A stretch of DNA of 37,109 nucleotides from Hyphomicrobiales bacterium (GTDB lineage: Bacteria > Pseudomonadota > Alphaproteobacteria > Rhizobiales > NORP267): the NCBI GenBank assembly GCA_021775875.1, contig JAJFHA010000021.1:1-37109 (forward strand), in the 5' to 3' direction. The notes beneath the pieces were generated by a model, which was not told the DNA's origin, made no database searches, and saw only the letters and a list, made by a program, of their open reading frames with translations. The position numbers and the translations under genes were made by a program. How positions within the stretch are numbered: the first letter of the stretch is position 1; every line of letters starts with the position of its first letter. Shown here one piece after another: positions 17,384 to 33,261 of the stretch.

Positions 17384-17420
17384 TCATTATTGTATTTCAA
17401 ACAGGTGAAGTGGGCGGTAA

Positions 17421-17448
17421 TTTCATGAATTCGGGCATGTTTCATGAA
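17421..17448 (+). repeat. Paired TTTCATGAA sites in the crcB leader
   Basis: TTTCATGAA occurs at 17421-17429 and again at 17440-17448, ten bases apart. Each contains the palindrome TTCATGAA. They lie between the rarA stop and the crcB start chosen here. They could be two half-sites or two sites of a regulator, or could pair in RNA. If crcB starts at the upstream ATG 17425 they would be coding. Confidence 0.7.
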
Positions 17449-19724: not shown

Positions 19725-21257
19725 ATGAAAGAAATTTTGCAACAGCTTGAGGAACGCCGGGACAAAGCCCGCAATGGGGGCGGTGCGAAGCGGATTGAAG
19801 CTCAGCATAAAAAGGGCAAGCTGACCGCCCGCGAGCGGATCGACTTGTTGCTTGATGAAGGATCGTTTGAAGAGTTCGATATGTTTGTCGAACATCGCTG
19901 CACCGATTTCGGCATGGAGAAATCGAAAATTCCGGGTGATGGGGTGGTCACTGGATGGGGCACGATAAACGGTCGTGTGGTTTATGTTTTTGCCAAAGAT
20001 TTTACCGTTTTCGGCGGCTCGCTTTCTGAAACCCATGCTCAAAAAATCATGAAAATCCAGGATATGGCGCTGCAAAATCGGGCGCCCGTCATCGGCTTGT
20101 TTGATGCCGGTGGTGCGCGAATCCAGGAAGGTGTCGCGGCGCTCGGCGGGTATGGCGAAGTTTTCTACCGCAACGTGATTGCATCCGGCGTTATTCCGCA
20201 AATTTCCCTGATCATGGGGCCATGCGCTGGGGGCGATGTTTATTCGCCCGCCATGACCGACTTTATTTTCATGGTCAAAGACACAAGCTATATGTTCGTC
20301 ACCGGGCCAGACGTTGTGAAGACCGTGACCAATGAAACGGTCACGGCCGAGGAACTTGGTGGTGCCAGCATCCATGCGACCAAATCCTCTATCGCTGATG
20401 GCGCTTACGAAAACGATGTCGAAGCCCTGTTGCAGATGCGCCGGTTTGTAGATTTTCTGCCTTCATCAAATCGCGAAGACGCGCCTGTATTGCCAAGTTT
20501 TGATAATTCCGAGCGGCTGGAATATTCGCTCGATACGATGATCCCCGACAATCCGAATATGCCCTACGACATGCACGAATTGATCCGCAAGATTGCCGAT
20601 GAGGGGGATTTCTTCGAAATCCAGGAAGATTTTGCCGGCAATATCATAACCGGGTTTATCCGCCTTGAAGGCCGCACAGTCGGGGTGGTTGCCAACCAGC
20701 CGATGGTGCTTGCCGGGGTTCTCGATTCTGATGCCAGCCGCAAGGGGGCGCGGTTCGTGCGCTTTTGCGATTGCTTCAATATCCCGCTCGTGACACTGGT
20801 TGATGTGCCCGGATTTTTACCCGGCACCGCGCAGGAATATGGCGGCCTGATCAAGCACGGTGCCAAGTTGTTATTTGCTTATGCCGAAGCCACTGTGCCG
20901 AAGGTAACCGTGATCACCCGCAAGGCCTATGGCGGAGCGTATGATGTGATGTCGTCAAAACATATTCGCGGCGACGTGAATTACGCCTGGCCGACCGCCG
21001 AGATTGCGGTGATGGGGGCCAAGGGCGCGGTTGAAATCATTTTCCGGGCTGAAATGGGAGATGACGACAAAATCGCCGACCGAACGGCTGAATATGAAAG
21101 CCGGTTTGCAACGCCGTTTGTAGCTGCCGAGCGAGGCTATATCGACGAAGTTATCATGCCCCACGCCACCCGCAAACGGGTCTGCCGCGCGCTCAACATG
21201 CTCCGCAACAAACAGGCGGAACTGCCCTGGAAGAAACACGCCAATATTCCGTTGTGA
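19725..21257 (+). CDS. pccB: Propionyl-CoA carboxylase beta subunit
   Basis: The carboxyltransferase subunit moves CO2 from biotin on PccA to propionyl-CoA, giving methylmalonyl-CoA. The 510-residue length is normal. The crotonase-type domains are recognisable from [42 protein letters not shown], and in the second half [47 protein letters not shown]. The end reads [10 protein letters not shown], as in relatives. The last eight codons, including the stop, recur in near-copy at 21792-21815 beyond the next gene. pccA lies 2.1 kb downstream. Acyl-CoA carboxylases of acetyl or methylcrotonyl type are less likely given this pairing and sequence. Confidence 0.95.
21234..21257 (+). repeat. Left copy of pccB-tail repeat
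   Basis: This is the actual 3' end of pccB, encoding KHANIPL and TGA. The first 14 bases, AAACACGCCAATAT, are identical to 21792-21805. Of the first 21 bases 18 are identical, and the three differences are all third-position or otherwise synonymous (ATT/ATC, TTG/CTT). Together with the right copy it brackets the hypothetical gene at 21260-21769. Confidence 0.85.
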
Positions 21258-21259
21258 GA

Positions 21260-21769
21260 ATGCTAGCTGTGTCTTGTGATTTAATTAGTTGGGAGGCGTT
21301 AGCGGCAATAGGAGCCATTGCAGCGGCTTGTGCAGCGGCTATTTCAGCTTGGCATAGTAAAAAGGCCGCTGAAAATGCGGAGCGGCTCGCCAAGGATCAA
21401 ATCTATCACGCGAAGGTCGAAAGGACGATTGCTCATAGCCCTGATCGAAATCGCGATTTGAAATGTGTTTTATCCAGTTTAGCTAAGAAGTATCCAATGC
21501 TGAAAAAAAGGGATGGCAGAGAAGTTGTAGTTGGTAAGATTGACAAAGAATTTGTGCCCGATTTGGAGACCGCTGCGAATTTGTGGGGGCAAATGGCTAC
21601 TCAATATTGCCTTGGTCTTTTGGATAAAGAAACCGCAAAATCTGTGCTGAAATGGCGATTTATTAAGTTTTGTGATGTTTTCGAAGATTGGCTTACGCGA
21701 GATGGGAGAGAAAATATCTACGTTGATACGTTGAAACTGCACAAGCTTTGGAAAGGCCCTCTGAAATGA
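21260..21769 (+). CDS. Hypothetical protein with N-terminal membrane segment
   Basis: Not recognised as a named family. The product has 169 residues from ATG 21260; a GTG at 21254 overlapping the pccB stop is an alternative. Residues about 10-32 (ISWEALAAIGAIAAACAAAISAW) form one transmembrane segment. A charged helix follows (KKAAENAERLAKDQIYH), so most of the protein is probably cytoplasmic and anchored. The C-terminal half is rich in Trp, Lys and Phe (KWRFIKFCDVFEDWL). It is visibly more AT-rich than the neighbouring pcc genes and is bracketed by a duplicated pccB tail, both suggesting recent arrival. Membrane-anchored accessory proteins of phage-defence or stress islands can look like this, but I claim no function. 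Confidence 0.6.
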   Translation: MLAVSCDLISWEALAAIGAIAAACAAAISAWHSKKAAENAERLAKDQIYHAKVERTIAHSPDRNRDLKCVLSSLAKKYPMLKKRDGREVVVGKIDKEFVPDLETAANLWGQMATQYCLGLLDKETAKSVLKWRFIKFCDVFEDWLTRDGRENIYVDTLKLHKLWKGPLK

Positions 21770-21791
21770 TGCGCCTGTCCGACTCGATTTC

Positions 21792-21815
21792 AAACACGCC
21801 AATATCCCGCTTTAG
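21792..21815 (+). repeat. Right copy of pccB-tail repeat
   Basis: AAA CAC GCC AAT ATC CCG CTT TAG here would encode KHANIPL and a stop, the same peptide that ends pccB, using different codons at Ile and Leu and a different stop. No start or longer open frame leads into it: an in-frame TGA lies at 21762-21764, and the bases between show no further similarity to pccB. It is best read as the displaced original, or the brought-in copy, of the pccB end. Confidence 0.85.
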
Positions 21816-21838: not shown

Positions 21839-22159
21839 ATGATTGTCACCACATCGGATAGCATTGAAGGTCAGGCGATTGGCGATTATTTGGGGATCGT
21901 TGCCGGTGAGGCGGTTCTGGGGGCGAATGTGTTTCGCGACTTTTTCGCCAATATTCGCGATATCGTTGGCGGGCGTTCCGGGAGCTATCAGAAAGTGCTG
22001 CGGGACGGGCGCGATCTAGCGCTTGAAGACATGATAGATGAAGCGACGCTGCTTGGGGCCGACGCCATTGTAGGTGTCGATCTGGATTATGAATCCGTTG
22101 GTCAATCAGGCGGCATGTTGATGGTATCAGTCAACGGCACGGCGGTGCGTTTCCGCTAA
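21839..22159 (+). CDS. YbjQ/UPF0145 family protein
   Basis: A small cytoplasmic protein of a widespread family sometimes called heavy-metal-binding; the true role is not established. The 106 residues begin [34 protein letters not shown]. They contain [42 protein letters not shown] and end in a beta strand with GTAVRFR, all typical. YbjQ proteins form pentameric rings in known structures. A good Shine-Dalgarno sequence (GAGGAG) precedes the ATG. It converges on the EamA transporter gene with only three bases between stops. Confidence 0.93.
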
Positions 22160-31712: not shown

Positions 31713-32039
31713 ATGTGGTTGAAAATTCGAATTCTGTTTTCCGCATTGGCGGTTTTGCTTCCAGCTCTGTTCAGCTTTTCAGCTAGCGCAGCGGACGTTT
31801 CCGCCGGTATGGCGGTGGTCGGAAATAATTGTTCGCGATGTCACGCTATTGGCCGCGAAGGAACCAGCCCGAGAGATGGCGCGCCCCGGTTTGTTGATCT
31901 GGTGACCCGATATCCACCGGCTCTGCTTGCTGAGGCTTTGGCGGAGGGGATCATGACTGGGCATTCCGATATGCCGGAATTCGTATTTACCCCCGAACAA
32001 ATTGACGATCTCATTCTCTATCTGGAATCTCTGGAATAG
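31713..32039 (+). CDS. Small periplasmic cytochrome c
   Basis: A c-type cytochrome carries electrons in the periplasm. ATG 31713 (108 residues) follows GGAG at 31702-31705; an in-frame TTG six bases earlier adds two residues. The signal peptide is clear: basic WLKIR, hydrophobic core ILFSALAVLLPALFSFS and cleavage after ASA. The haem motif CSRCH is at residues 40-44 and the likely axial methionine is Met87 in GHSDMPEF. The C-terminal helix is typical (FTPEQIDDLILYLESL). It has no visible partner oxidase or dehydrogenase nearby, so the redox partner is unknown. Confidence 0.93.
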   Translation: MWLKIRILFSALAVLLPALFSFSASAADVSAGMAVVGNNCSRCHAIGREGTSPRDGAPRFVDLVTRYPPALLAEALAEGIMTGHSDMPEFVFTPEQIDDLILYLESLE

Positions 32040-32186
32040 TTCCAGCTCAACTGTATGGCTGATCTTTATCGTAGTCCCGGTGCTGCATTTGGGATTTTGA
32101 TTGTCACGCTTTGGCGGCAGTGCGCTTGTAGCGATGGGGATCGCAACAGCCGAGTTCTGACGCGCTGACGCCTAGGCCTTCTCTGC

Positions 32187-32750
32187 TCAGCGCCTCTGCA
32201 TATATTTTCTGGTTTCATGCAGTAATGCCTTGGCATCTTCGTCAACTATGCCCAACGTTTCGTACTGGGCGTTGATATTTTCGAGATATTCCATGCTCGT
32301 CCCCATAAATCCGGTGCCCGTCGCAAAATAATGTATCTGTTCGTCGCGGGTCATGTTGGCGTCGATCAATATGGAAGCGTGATCAGCGACGAAGGTGAGA
32401 GCGGTAATGGGCTGATCTGCAACCACTGTTTCAACAAATGCGGGAATATAGGCGGGGCCTATTTGTTCACGCCGCCAAAGGACCTCTGTTTCCTCATCAA
32501 TATTTTCTTTTGTGATTCTGAACAAAAGCCCGTCACACCCCGTTCCTTTGTCCAAAGCTGCCATCACACCGGGGGCGTCCTCGGTGCCGCGTCCACCATA
32601 GATATCCTTGAGGATGAAGTGCCGTGCATAGCCGGGCAGGTGAGCCCGGCATACTTCAGCAAACTGTATGGCCGGGTCCCACATCAGCGAGCCATAACCG
32701 AATACCCAAAGGTCCTGGTTCATATGCCCTGCCAGGGCTTCAGCGCACAT
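32187..32750 (-). CDS. ChaC-type gamma-glutamylcyclotransferase, main domain
   Basis: ChaC-type enzymes split gamma-glutamyl peptides, chiefly glutathione, to 5-oxoproline and a dipeptide. The intact frame from ATG 32750 has 187 residues and covers the catalytic domain: VFGYGSLMWDP with the YGSL substrate loop, YGGRGTEDAPGVMAALD, and the presumed catalytic glutamate in LWRREQIGPAYIPAF. An internal ATG at 32723 sits just before QDLWVFGYGSL. No good Shine-Dalgarno sequence precedes either ATG. The real start is probably 32918, with a perfect ribosome-binding site, but that reading is broken by an amber codon (see next entry). Whether active protein is made is therefore uncertain. Confidence 0.8.
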   Translation of the reverse strand: MCAEALAGHMNQDLWVFGYGSLMWDPAIQFAEVCRAHLPGYARHFILKDIYGGRGTEDAPGVMAALDKGTGCDGLLFRITKENIDEETEVLWRREQIGPAYIPAFVETVVADQPITALTFVADHASILIDANMTRDEQIHYFATGTGFMGTSMEYLENINAQYETLGIVDEDAKALLHETRKYMQRR

Positions 32751-32918
32751 TGCCTCACGGTCATTGTCTGAATACCACCAATCGGGTGTTAAACCGAGCT
32801 CGCGTGTCTTTTCCGCCAGAAATGTCGTTGTGAGCGTCCGGGAAAATGACTAAAGTGGGTCGGCAATTTTCCCGCGCAATTCGGGATGGCGCGAGAATGG
32901 ATCTGAAATGGTGTTCAT
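32751..32918 (-). pseudogene. 5' part of the ChaC-like gene, with in-frame TAG
   Basis: On the minus strand AGGAGG (32925-32930) is followed after six bases by ATG 32918. The frame reads MNTISDPFSRHPELRGKIADPL, then TAG (32852-32850, codon 23), then SFSRTLTTTFLAEKTRELGL and onward into the catalytic domain without further stops. The N-terminal wording (DPFxxHPELR, WWYSD) resembles what I recall of alphaproteobacterial ChaC-like proteins. The gene would thus encode 242 residues plus one amber. CAG to TAG is the simplest change. Nonsense mutation, sequencing error or readthrough all remain open. Confidence 0.75.
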
Positions 32919-33057
32919 TGCTTGCCTCCTGATAGCCTCGAGATATTTTCCAATCAGGTTTGTCGCATAAGAGTGCGGCAAAGTTATTGGAAACCTAAAT
33001 CAATTCTCCGCATTTGTCGTGTCTACCGCGCACCTTCTTCCGATAACAAGGAGGTGC

Positions 33058-33168
33058 ATGACTGAAAATCGACACCAACGAAAGAATCCTGGATTCGGAC
33101 GGCATGGAATAATTTTGCGAAACAAAATGGTGGCATATTCTGTGTATGGCTTAAAAAAATGTCCTTAA
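33058..33168 (+). CDS. Candidate small protein, 36 residues
   Basis: The ORF has AAGGAGG (33048-33054) three bases before ATG 33058 and runs 36 codons to TAA. The start MTENRHQRKNPGFGRHGIIL is basic, and the middle (MVAYSVYGL) mildly hydrophobic. No family is recognised. The near-perfect Shine-Dalgarno sequence is the only support; the spacing to the ATG is a little short. It could be a leader peptide for the regulator gene 93 bases downstream, a standalone small protein, or chance. Confidence 0.35.
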   Translation: MTENRHQRKNPGFGRHGIILRNKMVAYSVYGLKKCP

Positions 33169-33200
33169 ATAGATGGAAAACAACGGAAAAATGAAAATGA

Positions 33201-33216
33201 TTGACTATTACGTAAA
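33201..33216 (+). promoter_or_regulatory. Possible MerR/LiuR-like operator
   Basis: TTGACTATTACGTAAA contains the palindrome TTACGTAA (33208-33215) and lies 46 bases before the regulator start. From memory it is close to the TTGAC...ACGTAAA type of site bound by LiuR-family MerR regulators in front of leucine-degradation genes. The TTGACT could also be a -35 hexamer, but no good -10 follows at 16-18 bases. Confidence 0.35.
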
Positions 33217-33261
33217 AGGAATGTTAGTGCCCTTAAACTAGATTTCTCGGGAGGGCAGGTC

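Follow-up and report, generated by a model that had tools for sequence, protein, structure and literature searches.

A foreign-looking gene behind pccB in a Hyphomicrobiales genome, and displaced pccB tails as probable marks of one-sided recombination

Genomic islands that enter at the 3' ends of genes, at att sites of the tRNA type, leave a rebuilt gene end on one side and a displaced end on the other. In homology-facilitated illegitimate recombination (HFIR), one end is joined by homology and the other without it, and the available text of two reports describes the process for bacteria with natural competence and, as a rare event, for conjugation in E. coli (PMC3240628, PMC2884548); the available part of the second also ascribes variable segments to homology-assisted illegitimate recombination (PMC2884548). 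For Vibrio T6SS clusters, with displaced 3' ends and orphan immunity genes, and for orphan Rhs tips, the accessible portion of a further paper describes entry by upstream homology that pushes the old 3' end downstream, and HFIR was proposed (PMC5361080). Hotspots without mobile elements have been described as well, as far as the accessible text goes: genes turn over between conserved neighbours by recombination at flanking core genes, with no recognisable integrases (PMC5635113). Our literature search for pccB together with hotspot, insertion and Alphaproteobacteria found no report of pccB as such a spot, and a search for propionyl-CoA carboxylase together with integration site and integrase returned unrelated work only.

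The tail pair behind pccB and the gene between its copies

The window, i.e. the whole stretch of 37,109 nucleotides analysed, belongs to the genome here called G000, and was compared with two congeners (G001 and G002) and with numbered loci (L) of other genomes. The features around the end of pccB are collected in Table 1. Direct reading confirmed what the preliminary description had noticed, namely that the pccB tail is present twice, with 14 identical bases followed by differences that are silent or lie in the stop codon. Both tails encode KHANIPL and a stop (seven residues plus stop, eight codons) at a spacing of 558 nt, and after the first 14 bases they differ by ATT/ATC, TTG/CTT and TGA/TAG, every change being silent. 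The pccB gene reads without a break into the working tail, and the displaced tail ends 23 nt before the ybjQ start. Similarity ends where the displaced tail starts, this side being joined without extended homology. The working-tail ending TTCCGTTG is also found in G002 and L037, and the displaced-tail ending CCCGCTT-TAG matches G001. The shared 14-mer occurs twice in the 3.1-Mb assembly, both times at the pccB tails. As a control, exact matches were sought between the last 33 nt of 173 pccB ends and the next 1.5 kb: the maximum on the reverse strand was 11 nt, and no more than five loci gave forward-strand matches of at least 12 nt, each of them carrying a displaced tail. The repeat thus exceeds what chance would give. 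The outer limits of the insert are uncertain, since the exchange could have taken place anywhere in the shared 14 bp or farther upstream in pccB.

Table 1. Features around the end of pccB, in window positions
Feature	Position	Strand	Remarks
pccB (propionyl-CoA carboxylase beta chain, as named in the preliminary description)	19725..21257	+	510 aa; target gene, intact; from the ORF list
Working (upstream) pccB tail	21234..21257	+	AAACACGCCAATATTCCGTTGTGA; ends TTCCGTTG-TGA; taken as the incoming copy
14-bp identical stretch, copy 1	21234..21247	+	From the sequence
Inserted segment between the tails	21258..21791	+	Other sequence here in G001 and G002; ORF GC-poor
Cargo ORF, DUF4760-like (below the Pfam cut-off)	21260..21769	+	169 aa; from the ORF list, Pfam, a relative and a structure model
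Displaced pccB tail	21792..21815	+	AAACACGCCAATATCCCGCTTTAG; ends CCCGCTT-TAG; taken as the old native end
14-bp identical stretch, copy 2	21792..21805	+	From the sequence
ybjQ-like gene (YbjQ_1, PF01906)	21839..22159	+	Former downstream neighbour of pccB within the genus

An exact 14-bp direct repeat flanking an insert could also be read as the target-site duplication of a transposon-like insertion. Such a duplication, however, would not recreate Ile-Pro-Leu-stop with different codons. No transposase was recognised in the insert, no inverted repeat of at least 14 nt was found flanking it, and the tail lengths vary between cases (see below); we regard this reading as extremely improbable.

The insert contains one ORF of any size. 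Its ATG at 21260 lies two bases past the pccB stop, which is overlapped by an in-frame GTG at 21254, and its GC content is 44.1% (GC3 40%) against 53.9% (GC3 62%) for pccB, bearing out the earlier statement that an ORF of unlike composition begins at the pccB stop. Among 366 overlapping windows of 510 bp along the contig, 4 have a lower GC content. The ORF scores 19.7 bits for DUF4760 (PF15956), under the Pfam cut-off of 25, and 35.5 bits were obtained for a relative in L037 that is 53% identical over 115 aa. L037 belongs to G777, a MAG labelled Hyphomicrobiales, and holds the one relative given by a genome-collection search that reaches close relatives only. The listed start of this relative is 8 nt past a pccB stop, i.e. 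directly behind pccB, and the L037 pccB is 76% identical to that of G000, lower than most matches of the pccB search. For the G000 ORF, PHROGs, NCBIfam and PADLOC gave nothing above a useful threshold, and no copies were found in plasmids, phages or viral contigs. Its structure model, built from two sequences, was of low confidence (mean pLDDT 64), too weak to serve as a structural query, and all-helical with a long N-terminal helix.

Both congeners lack the cargo ORF, and each keeps pccB and ybjQ with other genes between them: a sulfotransferase in G001 and, in G002, an ORF of 199 aa whose match is weakly HEPN-like. Each has one pccB tail, and no second tail was found in either. The empty site that had been expected in relatives was not found, as a gene fills the gap in all three genus genomes examined. 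Two cases that would have spoken against an insertion, namely relatives with both tails and no insert, and a gene always present and vertically inherited with pccB, were not seen; both congeners are single-tailed and without the gene. On these alignments the cargo gene appears foreign to the genus among the genomes compared. The window aligns to a G002 contig over 2948-22401 with two breaks, at the pccB gap and after 17401; at the latter place (window 17401-17430) G002 carries ~365 extra bases between a 441-aa AAA-type ORF and the next gene. Another variable gap lies at window 32029-33258, where 1229 bases stand against 291 in G001. Soon after the G002 ybjQ, which contains a few N, there is an apparent transposase fragment (L004:4200-4400), presumably IS110-like.

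Displaced tails and shared cargo at other pccB ends

Relatives of pccB at E<=1e-100 were present in 90 of 101 genomes. The search for other genes flanked by pccB tails, proposed in the preliminary description, was rewarded with five more loci with a displaced tail and different cargo (in G005, G212, G283, G346 and G279). Over the six loci the displaced tails measured 24, 27, about 27, 30, 135 and 153 nt, the two longest being those of G005 and G283; the other four start 24-30 nt from the pccB stop. In G212 the displaced tail opens with 17 identical bases and differences appear only afterwards. The tail pattern was present in 279 of 397 genomes of the order and occurred twice in eight, four of which (G000, G005, G212 and G283) have the two copies within 1.4 kb. 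The double patterns of G146, G211, G268 and G347 lay on separate contigs or far apart and had nothing to do with a second pccB tail. Of 385 genomes drawn at class level, 133 had the pattern, and no double pattern was detected among the 129 pattern-bearing genomes outside the order. A partial second tail (at least 20/24 nt) was found at three of 149 pccB ends (G005, G346 and G279); these ends comprised 29 + 60 + 60 loci, the 29 having a flank of 1.5 kb only, and G212 and G283 were left out as preselected for a second tail. No second tail was found among 30 loci around G777, of which three had less than 200 nt of flank, one was G777 itself and several came from already-sampled genomes. Tails of 3-6 residues were seen once in 178 pccB ends and also once in the reverse control. 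The decayed tails of G346 and G279 are without a stop, and tails of this kind would be partly hard to separate from chance without a DNA match. Two further candidates, G211 (L044) and G077 (L092), were rejected for N-gaps and a frameshift respectively; the frameshift in L092, of one base, lies in pccB shortly before its conserved end and is either real or a sequencing error.

The cargo differs between these loci. DUF4160 with DUF2442 was identified in G005, DUF2971 in G283 (matching PADLOC PDC-S31 at 2e-49), an SH3-domain ORF plus an ORF without family match on the other strand in G212, a GST on the other strand in G346, and an ORF without family match in G279. We compared ten cargo proteins of six families with 177 kb of sequence from 121 pccB flanks and with 760 kb from 38 control stretches, leaving out L037, which had been found through its cargo. 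Three cargo families, with queries from G005, G002 and G001, recurred behind pccB. The DUF4160-DUF2442 pair stands directly behind pccB in L166 (G798) and L019 (G005), in two families and with 42-44% identity; the G002 cargo family appeared again in L104 and, broken, in L021 (26-27% identity); and the G001 sulfotransferase appeared again in L032 (57% identity), behind another gene. No cargo-family match was found in the 760 kb of control stretches, and the chance that all four matches fall in the flanks is ~0.001 if they are random by length and independent. A later set of 60 pccB flanks gave one partial sulfotransferase match (L198). For the G002 protein Pfam returned HEPN_RiboL-PSP only (E=0.013, below the cut-off), and the G006 protein had no match at E<=0.01; an MltR-like label was dropped, being without Pfam support.

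The presence of the same cargo families behind pccB in distant lineages would fit old vertical inheritance, in which ancestral small genes behind pccB were kept in few lineages and the second tail goes back to an ancient event. Against this, the cargo ORF was found in 1 of 297 genomes of the order, the window's own, and the L037 relative in 1 of 248 genomes drawn around G777, a draw that overlaps the first; the genes in the gap of both congeners are unrelated, and the GC content is atypical. We consider inheritance of this kind quite improbable for the G000 locus; for the recurring cargo families, old vertical descent with many losses is a possible reading.

Among 519 control gene ends there was one partial-tail case (L121) plus one full-length paralog (L129, judged by long identity). 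The comparison of 3/149 pccB ends with the controls gave P=0.037, or 0.076 when the paralog was counted, at a threshold of 20/24 nt that would miss the G000 tail itself (18/24). A borderline enrichment at pccB is suggested, and the conserved pccB end also eases the recognition of old tails. A peptide-level check of 614 gene ends gave seven forward matches at >=6/7 residues, three with a stop after the match (the window's pccB, L121 and L129) and four without (L116, L127, L130 and L143); the reverse-strand control gave four matches, none with a stop. L121 is a stacked version of the pccB-type scar at another gene, and since a similar scar is thus present among the controls, the process need not be confined to pccB. 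At L121:14380-14660 (G175), a gene of 559 aa, which we take to be ETF-ubiquinone-oxidoreductase-like, has its end repeated twice more downstream: ...GGGGPTYPNM-stop is followed by a copy again with a stop and then by a changed third copy, each tail copy being preceded by a ~100-nt unit that holds an inverted repeat.

Origin of the displaced tails

A codon-wise comparison of working and displaced tails at the six loci showed 29 changed codons, of which 22 were synonymous, against 21% expected from random changes. The seven nonsynonymous codons were in G005 (2), G283 (1), G346 (2) and G279 (2), where the stranded copies are free to decay. These figures bear on a further alternative, namely that the pccB end was duplicated locally or that the repeat is an artefact of assembly. 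Two close copies in direct orientation, on one contig of a 28-contig draft assembly, would agree with it. A non-coding local copy, however, would not diverge silently, and we set local duplication aside on the strength of the silent differences, which are exclusive in G000 and predominate over the six loci; the earlier argument from silent codons against a simple tandem duplication is thereby borne out. A foreign-looking gene between the copies and like cases in other genomes also argue against this alternative, which we judge very improbable. The G000 tails appear to stem from two pccB lineages, foreign DNA with a pccB end having been inserted and the old end stranded. The central proposal of the preliminary description, a foreign gene at the pccB 3' end with a rebuilt end upstream and the old end downstream, is supported in this form, and the absence of the gene from the congeners agrees with it.

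We consider that the locus was probably, though by no means securely, shaped by homology-facilitated illegitimate (one-sided) recombination at a recurrent docking spot. An incoming fragment, in which a small cargo gene stood behind the 3' end of a related pccB, would have undergone recombination with the resident gene. Homologous exchange inside pccB on the left would have kept the gene whole; on the right, illegitimate joining without homology would have taken place just inside the resident pccB end. The product would begin with pccB, now bearing the incoming end, and continue with the cargo gene, the old end left stranded and ybjQ; the native end before insertion would have been CCCGCTTTAG, running straight into ybjQ. 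As last donor, a congener would be enough to supply the tails, and the vehicle may have been transformation or a gene transfer agent. The spot may also offer an advantage: with its start at the pccB stop, the cargo may share the message of pccB and leave that gene unharmed.

Several observations bear on this one-sided exchange. The tail lengths of 24-153 nt indicate variable right junctions, as illegitimate joining predicts. The identity between the G000 and G002 pccB genes, taken per 90-nt step, was 0.84-0.94 throughout and 0.94 near the 3' end, with no foreign tract visible; thus the exchanged piece would be short or the donor close. A donor for the G000 insert was not found. Contrary to the native-like displaced tails that the model predicts, those of G005 and G283 are not closer to relatives than the working tails (identity to G003, 0.833 displaced against 0.871 working; identity to G035, 0.92 against 0.94), which decay could explain. 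Recombination tends to remove direct repeats that are long and exact, and tails of ~30 nt or less and diverged long ones should therefore be favoured, as seen. As to the vehicle, L250 (G000:C12:107597-108511) matched the gene-transfer-agent marker GTA_TIM (PF13547) at E=2.7e-149; PF13547 was present in six of nine genomes examined (G000, G001, G002, G279, G283 and G346) and absent from G005, G212 and G777. A gene transfer agent is a possible vehicle, though not a required one.

The preliminary description had likened the tail pair to the trace of an integrating element that targets a gene's 3' end. An element of the att type is not supported, as the tails range over 24-153 nt with no single crossover point apparent, no recombinase was recognised and no mobile copies were found; the accompanying remark that the insert is without a recombinase holds for all the inserts, in which none was recognised. 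Motif search and reading gave no credible integrase behind 178 pccB ends: the motif matches in L042, L083, L085, L200, L226 and L230 were judged false on reading, as in the wrong frame or other proteins, and the motif also matched one control stretch, L141. The four tails of 24-30 nt among the six nevertheless keep a site-specific route possible and, together with the scarcity of tails of 3-6 residues, hint at a preferred junction. Recombinase-less mini-cassettes with a pccB-tail attachment site might be integrated in trans by a site-specific recombinase of the host or a phage, with the crossover in the conserved AARCACGAYAAYAT. The identical bases that open the displaced tails of G000 (14) and G212 (17), with differences only after them, the predominance of the short tails, the cargo families common to the same spot across families and the five PF00589 matches of G000 (four above the cut-off) on other contigs would all suit such a route. 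However, it does not readily accommodate the 135- and 153-nt tails, the lack of a credible integrase behind the pccB ends, the viral contigs without a match to the tail pattern (one pattern variant searched), the failure to find copies of the ORF in plasmids, phages and viral contigs, or the cargo sides of the junctions, where no shared motif is visible. We consider integration in trans possible but rather unlikely. A fuller version makes the last 24-30 nt of pccB a true docking site for cassettes of one or two genes (among them DUF4760, DUF4160-DUF2442, DUF2971 and a family without a name that is weakly HEPN-like), which would bring a spare pccB tail but no recombinase. Mobilised in trans, they would pass from family to family within one alphaproteobacterial order; this seems to us unlikely. 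If the junctions do cluster at one site, a hidden integration system would be indicated instead of one-sided recombination.

Comparison with described systems

Events of this kind are already known, and the new part is a recurrent housekeeping-gene docking spot with shared cargo. Displaced gene tails offer a readable scar of single foreign genes entering chromosomes without mobile-element machinery, and the pccB end, which collects the same cargo families in distant lineages, offers natural cases in which one-sided recombination can be tested by counting. Small genes that have yet to be studied may be sought there too, and one of them at least has a match to a candidate defence family.

Like genomic islands, the pccB insert shows direct repeats of the gene end and a rebuilt upstream end; unlike them, it has no recognised integrase and the tail length varies. 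The resemblance to HFIR lies in one homologous side, one side without extended homology and copies that differ like orthologs, the mechanism here being proposed from sequence. HFIR is known from experiments and from inferred variable segments, whereas the present cases are scars left in nature at a single housekeeping gene and marked by the stranded tail. In the Vibrio T6SS and Rhs systems, as the accessible portion of the source presents them, it is a variable effector gene that is hit, and the former module is retained to provide immunity; at pccB, by contrast, the target is a conserved metabolic gene, the protein is unchanged and only a scrap of the old end is left. Compared with hotspots without mobile elements, the pccB spot mostly holds one or two genes, is found across families of an order, and displays displaced tails rather than clean double crossovers.
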